From a virus, in the IMG/VR virus record IMGVR_UViG_3300021952_000034, positions 1 through 27,124 of that record: a stretch of 27,124 bases of DNA; one strand, given 5' to 3'. Below the pieces are notes generated by a model. The model did no database searches, was not told the DNA's origin, and saw only the letters and a program-made list of their open reading frames with translations. How positions within the stretch are numbered: position 1 is the stretch's first letter; every line of letters begins with the position of its first letter. Below, piece by piece: positions 7,453 through 16,548 of the stretch. A program made the translations under genes and the position numbers.

Positions 7453-9987
7453 ATGGCTAACCCTGCCAATTCATTAGTACAAAATCTGCTTCCCGTTCAA
7501 GCGTATTTCTCGGTTGACGGAGTTTTTCAAACATTTATTGGTCAGGGTCAGCCGTTTACTGCAACCATTAACCCAGTTCAGTCTGGGTTGACGATTACAA
7601 ATAGCACGATTGACTCGACAACAATCGGTGCGACTACGCCTTCATCTGGCGCATTTACAAGTATTTCCACCACAACTGGCACGATTACGACTCAACCATC
7701 GGGCGCTAACGACATAGTTAACTACCTTGCGTTGCAGTCTTATGCCGTTGGAATTAGTTGGAAAGCACCAGTTACTGCCGCTACTACTGCAAACATCACG
7801 CTATCTGGCCCACAAACCATTGATACCAAGGCTGTTGTTGCTGGCAATACAGTATTGGTTAAAAACCAAACAAACTCTGCTGAAAACGGCATTTATCAAG
7901 TAAATGCTGGCGCATGGACTTACGCAACGGGTTGCACGACTTGGCAACAGTATGTAAGCGCGTTGGTTTTTGTTGAATATGGTGGCCAACAAGGGTCGGC
8001 TTGGTACTGTACGGCACAGCCAGGCGGTACTCTTGGCACAACCGCAATGACATGGAGTAACTTTAGCGCGGCGGCTAACTACACCGCTGGTACTGGGTTA
8101 ACTCTTAACGGATTTCAGTTCAGCATTACCCCCGTAGGTACTGCTGGCACTTATGGTTCGGCTTCTGCTGTGCCAGTTTTTGTCACCAACGCTAGTGGAC
8201 AAATTACTTCGGTAACAAACACAAACATTGCCATTTCTGGCAGTCAGATTACCTCTGGAACTATTGGTTCTTCATACCTTTCTGGCTCATACACAGGAAT
8301 TACTGGTGTTGGAACGCTAACCGCAGGCACTTGGAACGCATCGACTATCGGTGTTGCTTATGGTGGAACAGGCGCAACTACGCTGACTGGCTATGTAAAA
8401 GGCTCTGGTACGACCGCTTTGACGGCATCTTCTACCATTCCAACGACAGACCTAAGTGGCACTATAACTAACGCTCAGTTAGCCAATAGCACCATTTCTG
8501 GCGTGTCTTTAGGCTCAAATCTGTTTAGTTTGACGATTGGTTCTGGCTTATCTGGCACAAGTTACAACGGCTCTAGCGCGATAACTATTACCAATTCAAG
8601 CCCAATGACCTATCCCGCAGTAGGAATTCCAAGTTCTACTGGTTCGGCATGGAATACAAGTTACAGCACTTCTGGTTCTGGAACAGTTATTCCTTTGGCT
8701 ACGGGTGCTACGCTAAACAACCCAACTGTTAGCAACTACGAAGGCTTTACGCCATCTTCCGCGCCAACATACGCTGAAGGTTTGGTTTGGTATGACTCTA
8801 CCGCTTATGCGCTGAGTTACTACAACAACACGACCAATAATGCGGTGCATTTAGGTCAAGAAATACAACAACAAGTCAGAAACTCTACTGGCTCAACCAT
8901 CACAAAGGGTCAAGTTGTCTATATTTCTGGCGCAACTGGTCAAATTGGCAACATTATTCTTGCCCAAGCAAATGCTTACAGTACTTCACAAGTTATTGGC
9001 GTTGCTAACCAAGACATTGCTAACAATACAAACGGATGGATTGTTACCCAAGGCACAGTAACAGGGTTAAATACCAACGGATTTACGGCTGGTAGCCCTA
9101 TTTATCTATCTGCCACAACTGCTGGCGCATTAACCCAGACCGAGCCAAGCACACCAAATTACGCTGTCCACATGGGTGTTTGTTTGTATGCAAACCCAAG
9201 CAACGGCAAGATATACATTAACCCGATTAACAAGTCGATTGATACTGGCTACATCATTGGTCAAGTGGCAATAGCGCAAGGGGGTACAAATGGAACGGCT
9301 ACTCCTACTGCTGGTGGCGTTGCCTATGGTAGCGGTACTGCTTACGCATTTACTTCTGCTGGAACATCTGGGCAAGTTTTAACCTCGAATGGTTCAAGCG
9401 CACCTACTTGGAACACCCTTGCATACGCAACGATTACAGATGACACAACGACTAACGCAACCCGTTATCCATTGTTTGCATCTGCCACAAGCGGTAACTT
9501 AACGACTGAATACACAAGTTCAACCAAGTTCCAATTTAACCCTTCTACGGGTTATTTGACTGTTACTGGTTTAAGTAGCCCAACAATAGCAACCCCAACA
9601 TTGTCTGGAACTGTTGCTGGAACTTACACCTTGGGCGGTACTCCAACGATTAACAACCCAACAATCACCAACTACACCGAAAGCGTGGTGGCGATTGGTA
9701 ACTCTGGCACTACTCAGACCCTATCGTTGACAAACGGCACAGTTCAAACAGTCACGATGACGGGTAACTGCACCTTCACCATGCCGACCAATACGGCTGG
9801 CAAATCATTTATTTTGATAGCAACGCAAGATGCAACGGGTTCAAGGACTGCGGTGTTCACATCGGTTAAATGGCCTAACGGCACAGCCCCAACCCTAACA
9901 ACTACCGCAAGCACAGGAAGAGACATATTGACCTTTGTTGCTGATGGCACTAATTGGTATGGCACTTACGCACAGGCGTTTGCATAA
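7453..9987 (+). CDS. Large modular tail or head fibre
   Basis: The 844-aa protein is Thr/Ser/Gly/Ala-rich and built of modules common in phage fibres. Residues about 45-80 are a GLTITNSTIDSTTIGA-type shaft. Residues about 100-205 hold a compact domain with VLVKNQTNSAENGIYQV and a Trp-rich end. Residues about 285-325 are GTWNASTIGVAYGGTGA repeats. Residues about 472-592 hold a beta domain with KGQVVYISGATGQIG. Then come a VAIAQGGTNGTATP / GQVLTSNGSSAPTWNTL module and a terminal domain ending FVADGTNWYGTYAQ. In known fibres such modules form trimeric shafts and exchange between phages, so a receptor-contacting fibre or capsid fibre is likely. GGGG lies upstream of the start, and the stop overlaps the next start as TAATG. 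Confidence 0.88.
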   Translation: MANPANSLVQNLLPVQAYFSVDGVFQTFIGQGQPFTATINPVQSGLTITNSTIDSTTIGATTPSSGAFTSISTTTGTITTQPSGANDIVNYLALQSYAVGISWKAPVTAATTANITLSGPQTIDTKAVVAGNTVLVKNQTNSAENGIYQVNAGAWTYATGCTTWQQYVSALVFVEYGGQQGSAWYCTAQPGGTLGTTAMTWSNFSAAANYTAGTGLTLNGFQFSITPVGTAGTYGSASAVPVFVTNASGQITSVTNTNIAISGSQITSGTIGSSYLSGSYTGITGVGTLTAGTWNASTIGVAYGGTGATTLTGYVKGSGTTALTASSTIPTTDLSGTITNAQLANSTISGVSLGSNLFSLTIGSGLSGTSYNGSSAITITNSSPMTYPAVGIPSSTGSAWNTSYSTSGSGTVIPLATGATLNNPTVSNYEGFTPSSAPTYAEGLVWYDSTAYALSYYNNTTNNAVHLGQEIQQQVRNSTGSTITKGQVVYISGATGQIGNIILAQANAYSTSQVIGVANQDIANNTNGWIVTQGTVTGLNTNGFTAGSPIYLSATTAGALTQTEPSTPNYAVHMGVCLYANPSNGKIYINPINKSIDTGYIIGQVAIAQGGTNGTATPTAGGVAYGSGTAYAFTSAGTSGQVLTSNGSSAPTWNTLAYATITDDTTTNATRYPLFASATSGNLTTEYTSSTKFQFNPSTGYLTVTGLSSPTIATPTLSGTVAGTYTLGGTPTINNPTITNYTESVVAIGNSGTTQTLSLTNGTVQTVTMTGNCTFTMPTNTAGKSFILIATQDATGSRTAVFTSVKWPNGTAPTLTTTASTGRDILTFVADGTNWYGTYAQAFA

Positions 9988-12380
9988 TGCTTGCCGCAAA
10001 AGACGAACTATTTACCCGACCTAGCGGTTCGTACACCATTGGTAAAAGTGTGCGAACACGGGCAAGTGCTAGTGCGTATCTAAATAGAACAATGGGGACT
10101 CCAACCAATTCCGCTAAATGGACTTGGAGTTTTTGGCTTAAACGAGGTAAATTGGCGGGTTCTGATTATCCAATTCTTTATTCTGCTGGAATTGTTGCGG
10201 CAGAAGATTTTGGATATTTTCGTGCTGGAACTGAAGCCTTATGGGTTGTCTGTAATTCAGTTACGATTTTGGCTTCTACCCAAGTATTTCGAGACACATC
10301 CGCTTGGTACAACATGATATTTGTATTTGATGGCGGCAATGCAACTGCTTCAAATAGATTACGCGTATATTTAAATGGCGTTGAAATAACGGCATGGGCA
10401 ACTGACCTTCGTTCTACGCTTACATCATCAAGTTCCAATGTAAATAAAAGCGGAACAGTTCATAGAATAGCAACTGACGCATACATGGGTGCTGGTGATT
10501 TTTATGATGGCTACCTAACAGAAATCAATTTCATTGACGGGCAAGCCCTAACCCCATCTTCATTTGGTTCAACCAACGCAATAACAGGCGTATGGCAACC
10601 AGCCAAATACACGGGTACTTATGGCAATAACGGCTTCTATCTAAACTTCAGTAGCAACGGCACAGCCGCCGCATTGGGTACTGATTTTTCTGGTAACAGT
10701 AATACATGGACAGTAAACAATATTAGCGTGACTGCTGGCACTACATACGACAGCATGACCGATGTGCCTACGCTGACAAGTGCGACTGCGGCTAACTATG
10801 CGGTGTTGAATCCGCTAGCGGTTGGTTCGACTGGTACTTCGGTTGTCAATAACGGCAACTTGTCTTTTGCAAATAGTTCTGCTCATGCTTCTATTACAAG
10901 CACAATGGGCGTAACATCTGGTAAATACTATTTTGAATGCACAGTAACAACTTCTAATCCTGGCGGTCTTGGTTTTACAACTTTAACTGCGCCATATAGC
11001 GGATACCCAAGTTCGGTGGCTAACTTGTGGTGGGTATATGACAACACAGGAAGTTTTAATGGCTTCAGTCAAACCACAACATTATTTAGTATTGGAAGCA
11101 AAATTGCTCTCAATCAAGTCTGGCAAGTTGCATTGGACATGGATAACGGCAAGGCTTGGATTGGTATTAACAACACTTGGTACGATTCATCGGGTGGCTC
11201 AACTGGCAATCCTTCAACGGGTGCTAATGCAATGTTCTCTAGCATTCCATCTACCAACCCAATGTTCTTCTTTGTTGAATGTGCTGGCAATGCTTGGGCT
11301 GGAAACTTCGGCCAACGCCCATTCTCCTACACACCCCCAACTGGCTTTGTAGCACTTAACACATATAACCTACCCACTAGCACGATAACTAATGGTGCGG
11401 CTTATATGGCGGCTACGCTGTATACGGGTACAAGTGGAAATGTATCAGTAGTTGATACAGTTAATGGAATCGGATTTCAACCAGATTTTATTTGGGTGAA
11501 AGCAAGAAGCAATGCGCAAGGGCATAGCAATATTGACTCTGTGCGTGGTGCAAATAAATTGCTTCAAACCAACCTAACAAATGCAGAATCCACCTTAACA
11601 AATCCTCCTACGTTTAACTCTGATGGATTTACATCAACAACTGATATTCACACAAATGGATATACATATGTTGCATGGCAATGGAAAGCAGGAACAACAT
11701 CCTCATCCAACACTAACGGCTCTATCACATCAACTGTAAGTGTGGGTGCTACGCAAGGCTTTAGCGTGGTGACTTATACAACCACAGGCTCTGCGGGAAC
11801 TGTTGGTCATGGTTTGGGTGTTGCTCCAGATATGATAATTTTAAAAAATAGGACTGGAGCGGCTGATGATTGGTATGTTTACCATTCTGCGCTTGGAAAC
11901 ACAAAGTATTTAATATTGGATGGAAATGCATCTGCGACCACGGCATCTACATGGTGGAATAACACATCTCCAACATCTACTGTATTTTCTTTGGGTTCAG
12001 CATGGTCTGTTGTTAAAAACTATGTAGCCTACTGCTTTGCCGCAGTAAAAGGATTTAGTGCCTTTGGTTCGTACACGGGTAACGGGTCTAGTGATGGGCC
12101 TTTTGTGTACACGGGGTTTAGACCGCGTTGGCTGTTACTGAAAAACACAGGTGGCGTTGCTTCTTGGTATTGTTTGGACTCATCTAGAAATACCTACAAC
12201 GTAGAAGATGCCGTACTTGTTCCAAATACAAATGCGGCTGAAGTATCAATTACTTCTGTTGATTTCTTATCTAATGGATTTAAATTAAGAACTACAACAA
12301 CAGACATTAACGGCTCTGGCACAACATACATCTACGCTTGTTTTGCCGAAGTGCCGTTCAAATCGGCTCTTGCCCGTTGA
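9987..12380 (+). CDS. Multi-domain adhesin with LamG-like and SPRY-like domains
   Basis: The 797-aa product starts at the ATG overlapping the fibre stop (TAATG). An upstream in-frame ATG at 9954 lies inside the fibre gene and is less likely. Residues about 20-200 resemble a concanavalin/LamG jelly roll (KWTWSFWLKRG, WYNMIFVFDG, RLRVYLNGVEIT). A linker with TYDSMTDVPTLTS follows. Residues about 290-440 look SPRY-like (GKYYFECTV, WQVALDMDNGKAWIGIN). The last part contains two related units with GIGFQPDFIWVKARS and GLGVAPDMIILKNRT, and a third weaker one (FRPRWLLLKNTGG). Such domains bind glycans or surface structures, so cell attachment is the likely role. It is coupled to the fibre and followed by an endonuclease gene that appears inserted. 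Confidence 0.86.
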   Translation: MLAAKDELFTRPSGSYTIGKSVRTRASASAYLNRTMGTPTNSAKWTWSFWLKRGKLAGSDYPILYSAGIVAAEDFGYFRAGTEALWVVCNSVTILASTQVFRDTSAWYNMIFVFDGGNATASNRLRVYLNGVEITAWATDLRSTLTSSSSNVNKSGTVHRIATDAYMGAGDFYDGYLTEINFIDGQALTPSSFGSTNAITGVWQPAKYTGTYGNNGFYLNFSSNGTAAALGTDFSGNSNTWTVNNISVTAGTTYDSMTDVPTLTSATAANYAVLNPLAVGSTGTSVVNNGNLSFANSSAHASITSTMGVTSGKYYFECTVTTSNPGGLGFTTLTAPYSGYPSSVANLWWVYDNTGSFNGFSQTTTLFSIGSKIALNQVWQVALDMDNGKAWIGINNTWYDSSGGSTGNPSTGANAMFSSIPSTNPMFFFVECAGNAWAGNFGQRPFSYTPPTGFVALNTYNLPTSTITNGAAYMAATLYTGTSGNVSVVDTVNGIGFQPDFIWVKARSNAQGHSNIDSVRGANKLLQTNLTNAESTLTNPPTFNSDGFTSTTDIHTNGYTYVAWQWKAGTTSSSNTNGSITSTVSVGATQGFSVVTYTTTGSAGTVGHGLGVAPDMIILKNRTGAADDWYVYHSALGNTKYLILDGNASATTASTWWNNTSPTSTVFSLGSAWSVVKNYVAYCFAAVKGFSAFGSYTGNGSSDGPFVYTGFRPRWLLLKNTGGVASWYCLDSSRNTYNVEDAVLVPNTNAAEVSITSVDFLSNGFKLRTTTTDINGSGTTYIYACFAEVPFKSALAR

Positions 12381-12392
12381 TAAAGGAAACAT

Positions 12393-12947
12393 ATGTTTAA
12401 ACACAACGACACAACATATTTTACAAAAAGCATGAGTTTAGTGGGACAACAAAAACATTCTTTGACTGTTATAAGTGAAGCAGAAAAAGATAATGTATTA
12501 AAAAGGCGTGTGTGGAATTGTCTTTGCAAGTGTGGAAAAACAACTAAAGTTTATACGGGCGACTGGAATGCTGGTAGAGCAAAAACTTGTGGATGTTCCA
12601 AATTTCGCAGGGGTGCAGACAATCCAAACTTTATTCATGGACTTACTAAAACAAACGAGTATTCATATAAATATAGAGTTAAAAAACGCTATGGCATAAC
12701 TATAGATGAATACGATGTTATGTATAAAGAACAAAATGGTAAATGCGCTATATGTAACAAAGACCCTTTGGAGCATGGAGAATACAGGCTTTCAATAGAC
12801 CATTGCCATCAAACAAACAAAGTAAGAGGTTTGTTGTGTAGTAATTGCAATAGGGCATTAGGAATGTTAAAAGATAACAAAGATGTTATTTTGTCTGCAT
12901 ACAATTATTTAATGAAAAATGAGGATAACCATGTTTTTACTCAATAA
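12393..12947 (+). CDS. Endonuclease VII-type HNH endonuclease, probably free-standing homing enzyme
   Basis: The 184-aa protein has two zinc-type parts. The N-terminal part has CLCKCGK (C43, C45, C47) and TCGCSK (C66, C68), a motif seen in DNA-binding regions of phage HNH enzymes. The C-terminal part matches T4 endonuclease VII: GKCAICNKDP (C118, C121), SIDHCH (D136, H137 as the catalytic region) and KVRGLLCSNCNRALGML (C149, C152). It would cut DNA, either branched junctions or, more likely here, a specific site to promote its own spread. It is clearly richer in A+T than its neighbours (19/60 and 15/60 G+C on two lines I counted, against 26/60 in the next gene). AAAGGAA precedes the start, and the 3' end overlaps the next gene. 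The enzyme appears intact. Confidence 0.9.
   Translation: MFKHNDTTYFTKSMSLVGQQKHSLTVISEAEKDNVLKRRVWNCLCKCGKTTKVYTGDWNAGRAKTCGCSKFRRGADNPNFIHGLTKTNEYSYKYRVKKRYGITIDEYDVMYKEQNGKCAICNKDPLEHGEYRLSIDHCHQTNKVRGLLCSNCNRALGMLKDNKDVILSAYNYLMKNEDNHVFTQ
12921..12924 (+). promoter_or_regulatory. Shine-Dalgarno deciding the 12931 start
   Basis: GAGG lies 6 bases before ATG 12931. The in-frame ATG at 12919 overlaps this GAGG and has no site of its own, so translation most likely begins at 12931. Confidence 0.65.
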
Positions 12948-13680: not shown

Positions 13681-14661
13681 ATGACAGTTCCATACGACAT
13701 TATCAGTAGAGCGTTAAAGGACATAGGCGCACTAGAGGCGGGCGAAACACCCACTTCGGATGCCGCCACAGACGCTTTTGATATGCTAAATGACCTTATA
13801 GACCAATGGTCTAACGAGGACATGATGGTTTTTAATGTGACTGAGATTATCTTTCCCGTTATAGCGGGTCAAACTCAGTACACGATTGGCCCAGTCGCTT
13901 CCACCGCCAACTTTATTGGTGCGTCTTTCACAGGCTCAATTACTGGTGACATTCTTACTGTTACCGCTATTGGCTCTGGCGCTGTGGCACAAGGGCAAAC
14001 CCTAAGTGGTACTGGCATTACTTCTGGAACGAAGATTGTTGACTTCCTAACGGGCGCTGGCGGTAATGTCAACGAAGTTGGAACATACAAACTCAACATC
14101 AGCCAGACAGTAGCCTCCACAACGATTACGGCTTACTACGAAAAGCCTTTGCAGATTAACTCTGCTTTCGTTAGGGTAAACACTACCTCTAATGGTCAGC
14201 CTATCCTTAATGGGGGCTTGGACTATCCAGTAGCGGTGTTGGCTTTGCAAGACTACGAGATGATTGGTTTAAAGACGCTGAACGGCCCGTGGCCAAAGGC
14301 GATTTACTTCAATCCTGGCGCTGATACGGGTAACTTGTTTGTGTGGCCAAACCCTTCTCAGGGCGAGATGCACTTGTTTGCTAACACCATTTTCAGCCGT
14401 TACAACACTTTGTACGACTCGATTGTGTTGCCACAAGGCTACTCAATGGCTCTTAGATGGTGTCTAGCCGAGCGTTTGATGCCTATGTATGGCAAAGCCT
14501 CAGCAGTTCAAATTCAGATGATTAACGCTTATGCGGCACAAGCCAAAGCGACTATCAAGCGAAACAACATGACTCCACTACAAGTGGCAAGATACCCAGA
14601 CGCTTTGATGAACTCTAAAGCGAAGGACGCGGGCTGGATACTCACCGGGGGGTTTGTCTAA
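13681..14661 (+). CDS. Head-completion (DNA stabilization) protein, P22 gp4-like, with inserted beta-module
   Basis: The 326-aa protein begins [21 protein letters not shown] and continues [20 protein letters not shown], typical of P22 gp4-type adaptors that plug under the portal. The second half has [34 protein letters not shown] and ATIKRNN, also typical. P22 gp4 is only 166 residues. Part of the excess is a separable beta-module at residues about 81-152 ([18 protein letters not shown] to [10 protein letters not shown]), lying between the TIGP and [10 protein letters not shown] strands. The same module occurs twice in the next gene. In this family the protein seals the filled head and forms the docking ring for gp10 and the spikes. 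It is immediately followed by the gp10-like gene. Confidence 0.88.
13921..14136 (+). repeat. Inserted beta-module, copy A
   Basis: This stretch encodes about 72 residues with the pattern FTGSI[13 protein letters not shown], then [15 protein letters not shown], then a Gly-rich turn, then [18 protein letters not shown]. The same pattern recurs twice in the adjacent gp10-like gene. It splits an otherwise standard gp4-like protein. Confidence 0.75.
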
Positions 14662-16548
14662 ATGGCAGACTTTGGCTTTGTTGGCCCTTCCTATCCTGCG
14701 GCATCTGTATATGTCGACAGCAACGAATGTATTAACTTCCTTCCAGAAGTTGACCCACTCAAACAGCCTGGCGACCGAGGGGTAGTGGCGCTATATCCAA
14801 CGCCTGGTCTGACGATTAAAGCCATTTTGCCCAACCAACAAGAGGTTCGTGGCCTAAGAACGCTATCTGGTGGCACACAAATGCTTGCCGTTTGTGGCGC
14901 GTATGTTTATGTGTTTAATAGCACTTTAAACCCTACCATGATTGGTCAGTTAAATAGCACAACTGGTCGCGTTACTATTTCTGACAACGGAATTAACGCT
15001 TATATCGTAGACGGAACTTATCGCTACACATGGCGCATTGGAACTGTTACATCTGCTGTGTTTACGGGTTCTACCTCTGGCACGACTTTGACTGTTACTT
15101 CGGTTAAATCTGGCACTATCGCTGTTGGTCAAAACCTATTTGCTGTTGGCGCACTCCAAGAAACAGTCATAACTGCTTTGGGAACAGGAACTGGTGGAAC
15201 AGGTACATACACCATTGGTCGTTCACAAACCATCGCTTCTAGCCAGATGTACACCTCTAGCCCAGGCGCGGTGGTGACTGCCGCCATAACTGGCACAACG
15301 CTAACTGTTGCTTCAGTTACTAGCGGTACTTTGTATGTTGGTCAAACCATCCAAGGTACTGGCATCACCGCACAGACCATCATTACCGCGTTGGGAACAG
15401 GTACTGGTGGTGCAGGGACTTACACAGTAAATAACTTACAGACAATCGCATCTATCACGATGTACGCCCTTAATTGGACTGTATTGCCGTCAAGCGATGG
15501 CGCGTTCTCAGGGGGCGAGACTTGTGACATTGTTGACAATTACTTCGTATATAACCGCCCTGCATCTCAGCAATGGGGTGCATCGGGGGTTTTATCCCCT
15601 ATTTCTGGCAATACTTCATTTTCTAGCAAAGATGGCTCGCCAGATAACTTAGTGGCTCTCATTGTTGACCACCGAGAGGTCTACCTTATGGGTGAGGCTT
15701 CTTCGGAGGTGTGGACAGATGTGGGTGGAAACCCTTTCCCGTTTCAACGGATTCCTGGCACTAACACCCAACACGGAATTGCGGCTAAGTTCTCCGTTTC
15801 CCGTTTTGGTGATTCATTCTGTTATGTTTCCCGTAACAATCGAGGTCAAGCGCAGATTATGCAAATGAAGGGCTATGTGCCTACTCGCATATCTAACCAC
15901 GCGGTTGAGAATTCCATTACCAATCAATATGTAGATGATGCTATTGCTTGGACTTATCAGTTAGAAGGTCACGAAGTTTATGTCGTGTCTTTCCCGACTC
16001 TAGAGTTAACTTGGGCATACGACCTAGCCTCTGGAATGTGGCACAAGTGGTTGTACACAAACAATGACGGCACTTACACGCGTCACAGAGGTAATTGCTG
16101 TGCGGTGTTTCAAGGCATGGTTTTGGTAGGTGACTACCAAGACGGCTCAATTTACGAGTTGGACAAGAACAACTACACCGACAACGGACAGTACATCCGT
16201 AGGCTTCGCAGAGCGCCACATTTGGTGTCTGACTTCCAAAGACAATACTTTGATGAACTGCAAATTCAGTTTCAGCCTGGCGTTGGTCTGACAGGCATAA
16301 CCACACCGCTAAATAATGAAGTGGTGGGCGCTGACCCACAAGCGATGCTGAGATGGTCAAACGATGGCGGTTCTACTTGGTCAAAAGAATATTGGACTTC
16401 TATCGGCAAAATCGGGAAGTACAAGAATCGTGCCATTTGGCGCAGATTAGGAATGGCTAGAGATAGGGTGTTTGAGGTGGTTGTAAGCGACCCAATCAAC
16501 GCTGTAATTGTCTCGGCTAACCTAAAAGCAACGGCAGGGGAAAACTAA
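14662..16548 (+). CDS. Packaged-DNA stabilization protein, P22 gp10-like, with two inserted beta-modules
   Basis: The 628-aa protein starts [20 protein letters not shown] and ends with [29 protein letters not shown] and SDPINAVI, all features of the P22 gp10 type hub protein. P22 gp10 has 472 residues. Removing two tandem beta-modules at about 131-197 and 204-268 leaves about 490, close to that length. Core motifs in between include [27 protein letters not shown] and [14 protein letters not shown]. In P22 the protein forms a hexameric ring below gp4 and carries the needle and spikes. The start follows the gp4-like stop directly, and the stop overlaps the next start as TAATG. Confidence 0.9.
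15052..15252 (+). repeat. Inserted beta-module, copy B
   Basis: This stretch encodes [20 protein letters not shown], then VGQNLF, then [20 protein letters not shown]. It is one of two tandem copies in the gp10-like gene and matches copy A in the gp4-like gene. Confidence 0.75.
15271..15465 (+). repeat. Inserted beta-module, copy C
   Basis: This stretch encodes [33 protein letters not shown] and [17 protein letters not shown]. It is close to copy B also at DNA level, for example TTGGGAACAGG followed by ACTGGTGG in both, which points to relatively recent duplication. Confidence 0.75.

Follow-up and report, generated by a model that had tools for sequence, protein, structure and literature searches.

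Phage Ig-like domains (Fraser et al. 2006, as reviewed in PMC9022992) are small beta domains found, as appendages or insertions, in virion proteins of many kinds. They are patchy among relatives, presumed to be exposed, and dispensable to the core of the protein that carries them. They are not essential; loss of one makes infection less efficient in some mutants, and it has been speculated that they take part in recognising molecules on the host surface (PMC9022992). Additional beta domains are also described in adaptor and nozzle proteins. In SU10, four Ig-like domains are inserted in the nozzle propeller, between its blades 2 and 3 (PMC9509320). In T7 a loop of nozzle blade 3 contains the nozzle tip, and the adaptor has a fibre dock, which is described as absent from P22 and Sf6 (PMC6702177).

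The DNA analysed here (the window, 27,124 bases in full) is a virus record with genes for a P22-type portal (PF16510) and a P22-type coat protein (PF11651). A gp4-like adaptor gene adjoins a gp10-like nozzle gene. The adaptor has one copy of a beta module of 67-71 aa, and the nozzle has two tandem copies of the same module:

13681..14661, + strand: adaptor of the P22 gp4 / T7 gp11 type, 326 aa (AlphaFold2 model and VIA matches)
about 13924..14136, + strand: module A, adaptor aa 82-152, inside the beta domain at aa 52-236 (profile E 4e-28)
14662..16548, + strand: nozzle / head-closure protein of the P22 gp10 type, phrog_578, 628 aa (phrog_578 E 1.1e-97; VIA Z 35.2 to P22 gp10)
15055..15255, + strand: module B, nozzle aa 132-198 (profile E 3e-28; block pLDDT 85-95)
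15268..15468, + strand: module C, nozzle aa 203-269 (profile E 7e-28; block pLDDT 90-96)

The initial annotation had named both host families correctly. The nozzle belongs to the P22 gp10 / head closure Hc3 family by its sequence profile and by its platform-plus-propeller fold, the match to P22 gp10 extending across 432 residues. Public protein data already contain a nozzle that shares this fold and is similarly long (A0A6J5QB28, 656 aa, TM 0.90). The adaptor belongs with P22 gp4 and T7 gp11 by its helical bundle fold and by the place of its gene beside the nozzle gene. Its alignment to P22 gp4 (VIA Z 15.1, rmsd 2.0) covers 111 residues, versus 158-215 residues for the adaptors of T7, A4, LME-1 and others (VIA Z about 10-12). 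The gp4-like identity thus stands as far as the fold goes, with one refinement: the module lies within a beta domain of the T7 fibre-dock type, which is absent from P22 gp4. Removing the inserts leaves a gp10-like protein of ~490 aa, as had been calculated, and a gp4-like protein of ~250 aa. Elsewhere in the window, an 808-aa protein with DUF7483 at its C-terminal side (9954-12380, E 4e-113) is followed by an endonuclease VII gene (12393-12947); in MW202674 (L005:6035-6613) an endonuclease gene is located between the adaptor and nozzle genes.

The three copies were recovered by a six-frame scan of the window with a profile made from relatives, which returned A, B and C alone (next best, E 0.23), and their annotated limits proved right to within a few bases. 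A second profile, made mostly of modules from other proteins, again found exactly these three. Protein identity is 46% for A-B, 51% for A-C and 59% for B-C, and the conserved motif reads GQ..GTGIT..GTGTGG.GTYT. Smith-Waterman scores of the copy pairs exceeded those of composition-preserving shuffles by z = 12, 14 and 21, so that the likeness is not an effect of Gly/Thr richness. As had been noticed, B and C are alike in DNA too (72-73% over 57 and 89 nt); for A-B the figure is about 61%.

Among the Pfam matches listed for the module up to E 10 there was no Ig, Big_1, Big_2, I-set or FN3 family. Neither Pfam nor NCBIfam has a model for it, and solved structures searched with its sequence gave no match. 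A tblastn search of phage records with the module alone was also without match, probably owing to the low-complexity filter, and nothing came out of a literature search for the motif, of a kind of string that is rarely printed. Judged by its sequence, the module forms a separate family, matching neither Ig nor any other entry of Pfam.

AlphaFold2 models of the adaptor and nozzle reached mean pLDDT values of 80 and 79, with the modules mostly at 85-96 and the low-confidence parts mainly at chain ends and in the nozzle platform. In both models the modules fold as separate, confident beta units. The adaptor model consists of helices at 4-14 and 26-45, beta strands at 52-236, and helices at 252-270 and 275-296. 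The beta domain is thus placed between the second and third helix, as in T7-type adaptors, fibre docking by this domain being an analogy. Module A (strands 80-99, 107-109, 118-122 and 134-152, pLDDT mostly about 90) is predicted to be inside this domain, at the place of the T7 fibre dock. The nozzle inserts come after strands 105-108, 112-117 and 120-125 and before strand 272-275. This is predicted to be the outer hairpin of propeller blade 3, the blade number having been obtained by counting strands from the closure strand 49-55 and not from coordinates. The best fold match of module A was chain 1 (124 aa) of the Arthrobacter phage Bridgette capsid entry (PDB 8eci), with Z 7.0 over 67 residues, rmsd 2.4, Foldseek probability 0.99 and ~20% identity; chance arrangements do occur at Z 7.0. 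Chain 1 is probably the dimeric capsid cement protein of Bridgette.

The status of the module in the two families was assessed from the number of residues between the conserved halves at each site. At the adaptor site, 153 adaptors of the window clade have 81-85 residues and 78 of the sister clade 81-154, versus 8-16 in 71 outgroup adaptors (Rhodoferax phage P26218 type). At the nozzle site, the window clade has a median of 148 residues (146 nozzles, one of which has just 7), versus 5-7 in 82 sister-clade nozzles and 4-13 in 82 outgroup nozzles. The module is an insertion in both families, neither ancestral nor part of the core, as the annotation had proposed: outgroup adaptors and nozzles have only short spacers at both sites. 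The adaptor site is also occupied in a third clade (Xanthomonas phage PBR31 type), here by an insert of about 84 residues. Compared with four groups of modules, this insert matched three at 60-81% probability, over 22-26 columns, and the fourth at 2%. It may be a diverged relative of the module, in which case the adaptor gain would be older.

In a core tree built without the module columns, presence of the module changes a single time in each of the two proteins, adaptor and nozzle. This is a quick tree, in which the rows chosen as outgroup do not form a clade. The nozzle-module clade (37 rows, SH-aLRT 99) is nested in the adaptor-module clade (63 rows, SH-aLRT 100), and one gain each is the shortest account because the outgroup has neither module. 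Every sampled adaptor of the window and sister clades has the module, and 79 genomes in which both genes are readable have it in the adaptor and not in the nozzle. We conclude that the adaptor gain is the older one, common to the window and sister clades, and that the nozzle pair came later, once, as a separate event. A joint, paired insertion, as first supposed, is not supported.

Within a genome, B and C are 57.8% identical, versus 58.1% between genomes; B-B identity is 71% and C-C 74%. These values reject both a young age of the pair and gene conversion between its members: B and C are an old pair. A source of the nozzle modules in the adaptor module, in cis, is unsupported, since the best matches of B and C are in other proteins (65-66%, versus 57-58% for adaptors). 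Extra copies are found at the tips of the tree, with two modules in some adaptors and up to four in nozzles; L009, the row nearest to the window by path, is among those concerned. In the adaptors and nozzles examined, extra copies are mostly just 30-58% identical to the resident ones, and recent local duplication is rejected as their source. In pairs of near-twins, for example L222 and L229, the difference is a single whole module between well conserved flanks. Twin differences and divergent extra copies together fit whole-module gain or loss by recombination. In the nozzle genes of L295 and L261, a further insert of about 60-75 residues appears to split module C, a nested insertion.

The suggestion that similar modules occur in many phage proteins was borne out. 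We found the module in tail sheath, baseplate wedge, minor head, phrog_3287 virion and tail fibre or spike proteins, and also in capsid cement and neck terminator proteins (host class by Pfam). One adaptor-like protein (L289:3797-4738, phrog_394), from a phage with a GP7-type capsid gene (PF20911), has the module inside it, probably through an independent adaptor insertion. A 59 kb virus contig (L464) gave 12 module matches in at least 6 reading frames. By contrast, 16 nearly full-length relatives (29-37 kb) carry the module solely in frames that match adaptor and nozzle in size; these were drawn from 20 checked, the other 4 being shorter or having extra nozzle copies. Module copies in genome contigs are few, several of them in phage-like genes. 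In two other phages (L491:2730-5257 and L299:1224-5449), a neck terminator gene (PF23961) and the tail sheath gene (phrog_205) beside it both carry the module. Paired carriage by neighbouring virion proteins is therefore recurrent and not unique to this locus. Comparison of all these sequences shows the module to behave as a promiscuous, movable decoration of phage virion proteins.

Estimates of dN/dS were 0.09-0.13 for the modules and 0.06-0.08 for the cores, rough values given that dS is near saturation. Being far below 1, they indicate that the modules are conserved rather than hypervariable, and they do not suggest a fast-evolving receptor-binding part. The reading that we favour, and consider reasonably probable, is that the modules are exposed accessory domains which give the tail surface bulk and stability, perhaps with some weak adhesion, a role like that proposed for phage Ig-like domains. 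The module would be a self-contained beta domain whose first and last strands appear side by side, so that it could enter a host hairpin and leave the host fold undisturbed. It would have entered first the adaptor, within the T7-type fibre-dock beta domain. A tandem pair would have later entered the outer hairpin of the nozzle blade, near the sites of the inserted domains of T7 and SU10. If the adaptor is 12-fold and the nozzle 6-fold, as they are in P22 and T7, a virion would display ~12 modules at the height of the fibre dock and ~12 on the nozzle. We infer exposure by analogy, and likewise infer copy number and function. Twin genomes with and without a module make the function of such decorations directly testable.

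The modules might instead serve to dock tail fibres or spikes of the phage itself, matching modules of adaptor and nozzle clamping one fibre, as the T7 fibre fits between docks of the adaptor and nozzle (PMC6702177). The predicted position of module A within the fibre-dock domain is in keeping with this, as are the limitation of the module to adaptor and nozzle in the 16 relatives and its presence in another adaptor-like protein, that of L289. We nevertheless judge docking unlikely: sister-clade nozzles lack the module while their adaptors have it, the nozzle insert is in a blade hairpin beside the nozzle-tip position and not at the T7 nozzle fibre dock, and sheath and cement proteins, where docking is not expected, carry the module too. 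It is also improbable, in our opinion, that the module family colonised adaptor and nozzle as a functional set, a two-level decoration of the short tail in which the number of nozzle modules varies as an SU10-like extension, lengthened or shortened by whole modules.

The idea that adaptor and nozzle modules touch, forming an interlocking collar that stiffens the joint, came with the initial annotation. The two rings do stack in P22 (PDB 8u10: gp1, gp4, gp5, gp10, gp9), and the adaptor module is present in all sampled genomes having nozzle modules and a readable adaptor. However, A resembles B or C no more within a genome than between genomes (permutation p 0.89 and 0.63, in an insensitive test), the two insertion sites fall in separate parts of the tail if T7 and SU10 are taken as guides, the adaptor module stands alone in the 79 genomes mentioned above, and with one gain each the association is without replicate. 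We give such contact very little credence. Patchy gain and loss in twins and the many unrelated host proteins would suit a hitch-hiking sequence, spread by recombination among virion genes and merely tolerated, and this we find just as hard to believe, given the strong purifying selection on the modules, their presence in every sampled adaptor of two clades and reading frames that are intact throughout.

Since the module is a widespread, movable decoration, the adaptor and nozzle pairing of the window illustrates well, and anew, a habit already known in phage evolution and is not a new machine. The case adds adaptor and nozzle to the phage protein classes that carry such promiscuous domains, and presents a family of them for which neither Pfam nor NCBIfam has a model. 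Like phage Ig-like domains, the module is a small beta domain found in several virion protein classes and patchy among relatives, a likeness of behaviour and not of membership. Unlike them, it has no Ig, Big or FN3 match, and it occurs here as in-frame internal inserts in the adaptor and nozzle, outside the five protein classes of PMC9022992. The Bridgette protein that it best matches in fold is on the capsid, versus the tail here. The T7 gp11 fibre dock and gp12 nozzle tip are beta domains added to adaptor and nozzle in comparable positions, but those two are not stated to be copies of one module (PMC6702177), and we found no sequence relation of the module to them. The SU10 nozzle has, as here, tandem beta domains in a gp10-type propeller near blades 2 and 3, the place being compared by strand counting (PMC9509320). 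It differs by the domain family and by the number of copies, four versus two, and in the window the adaptor bears the same domain as well.
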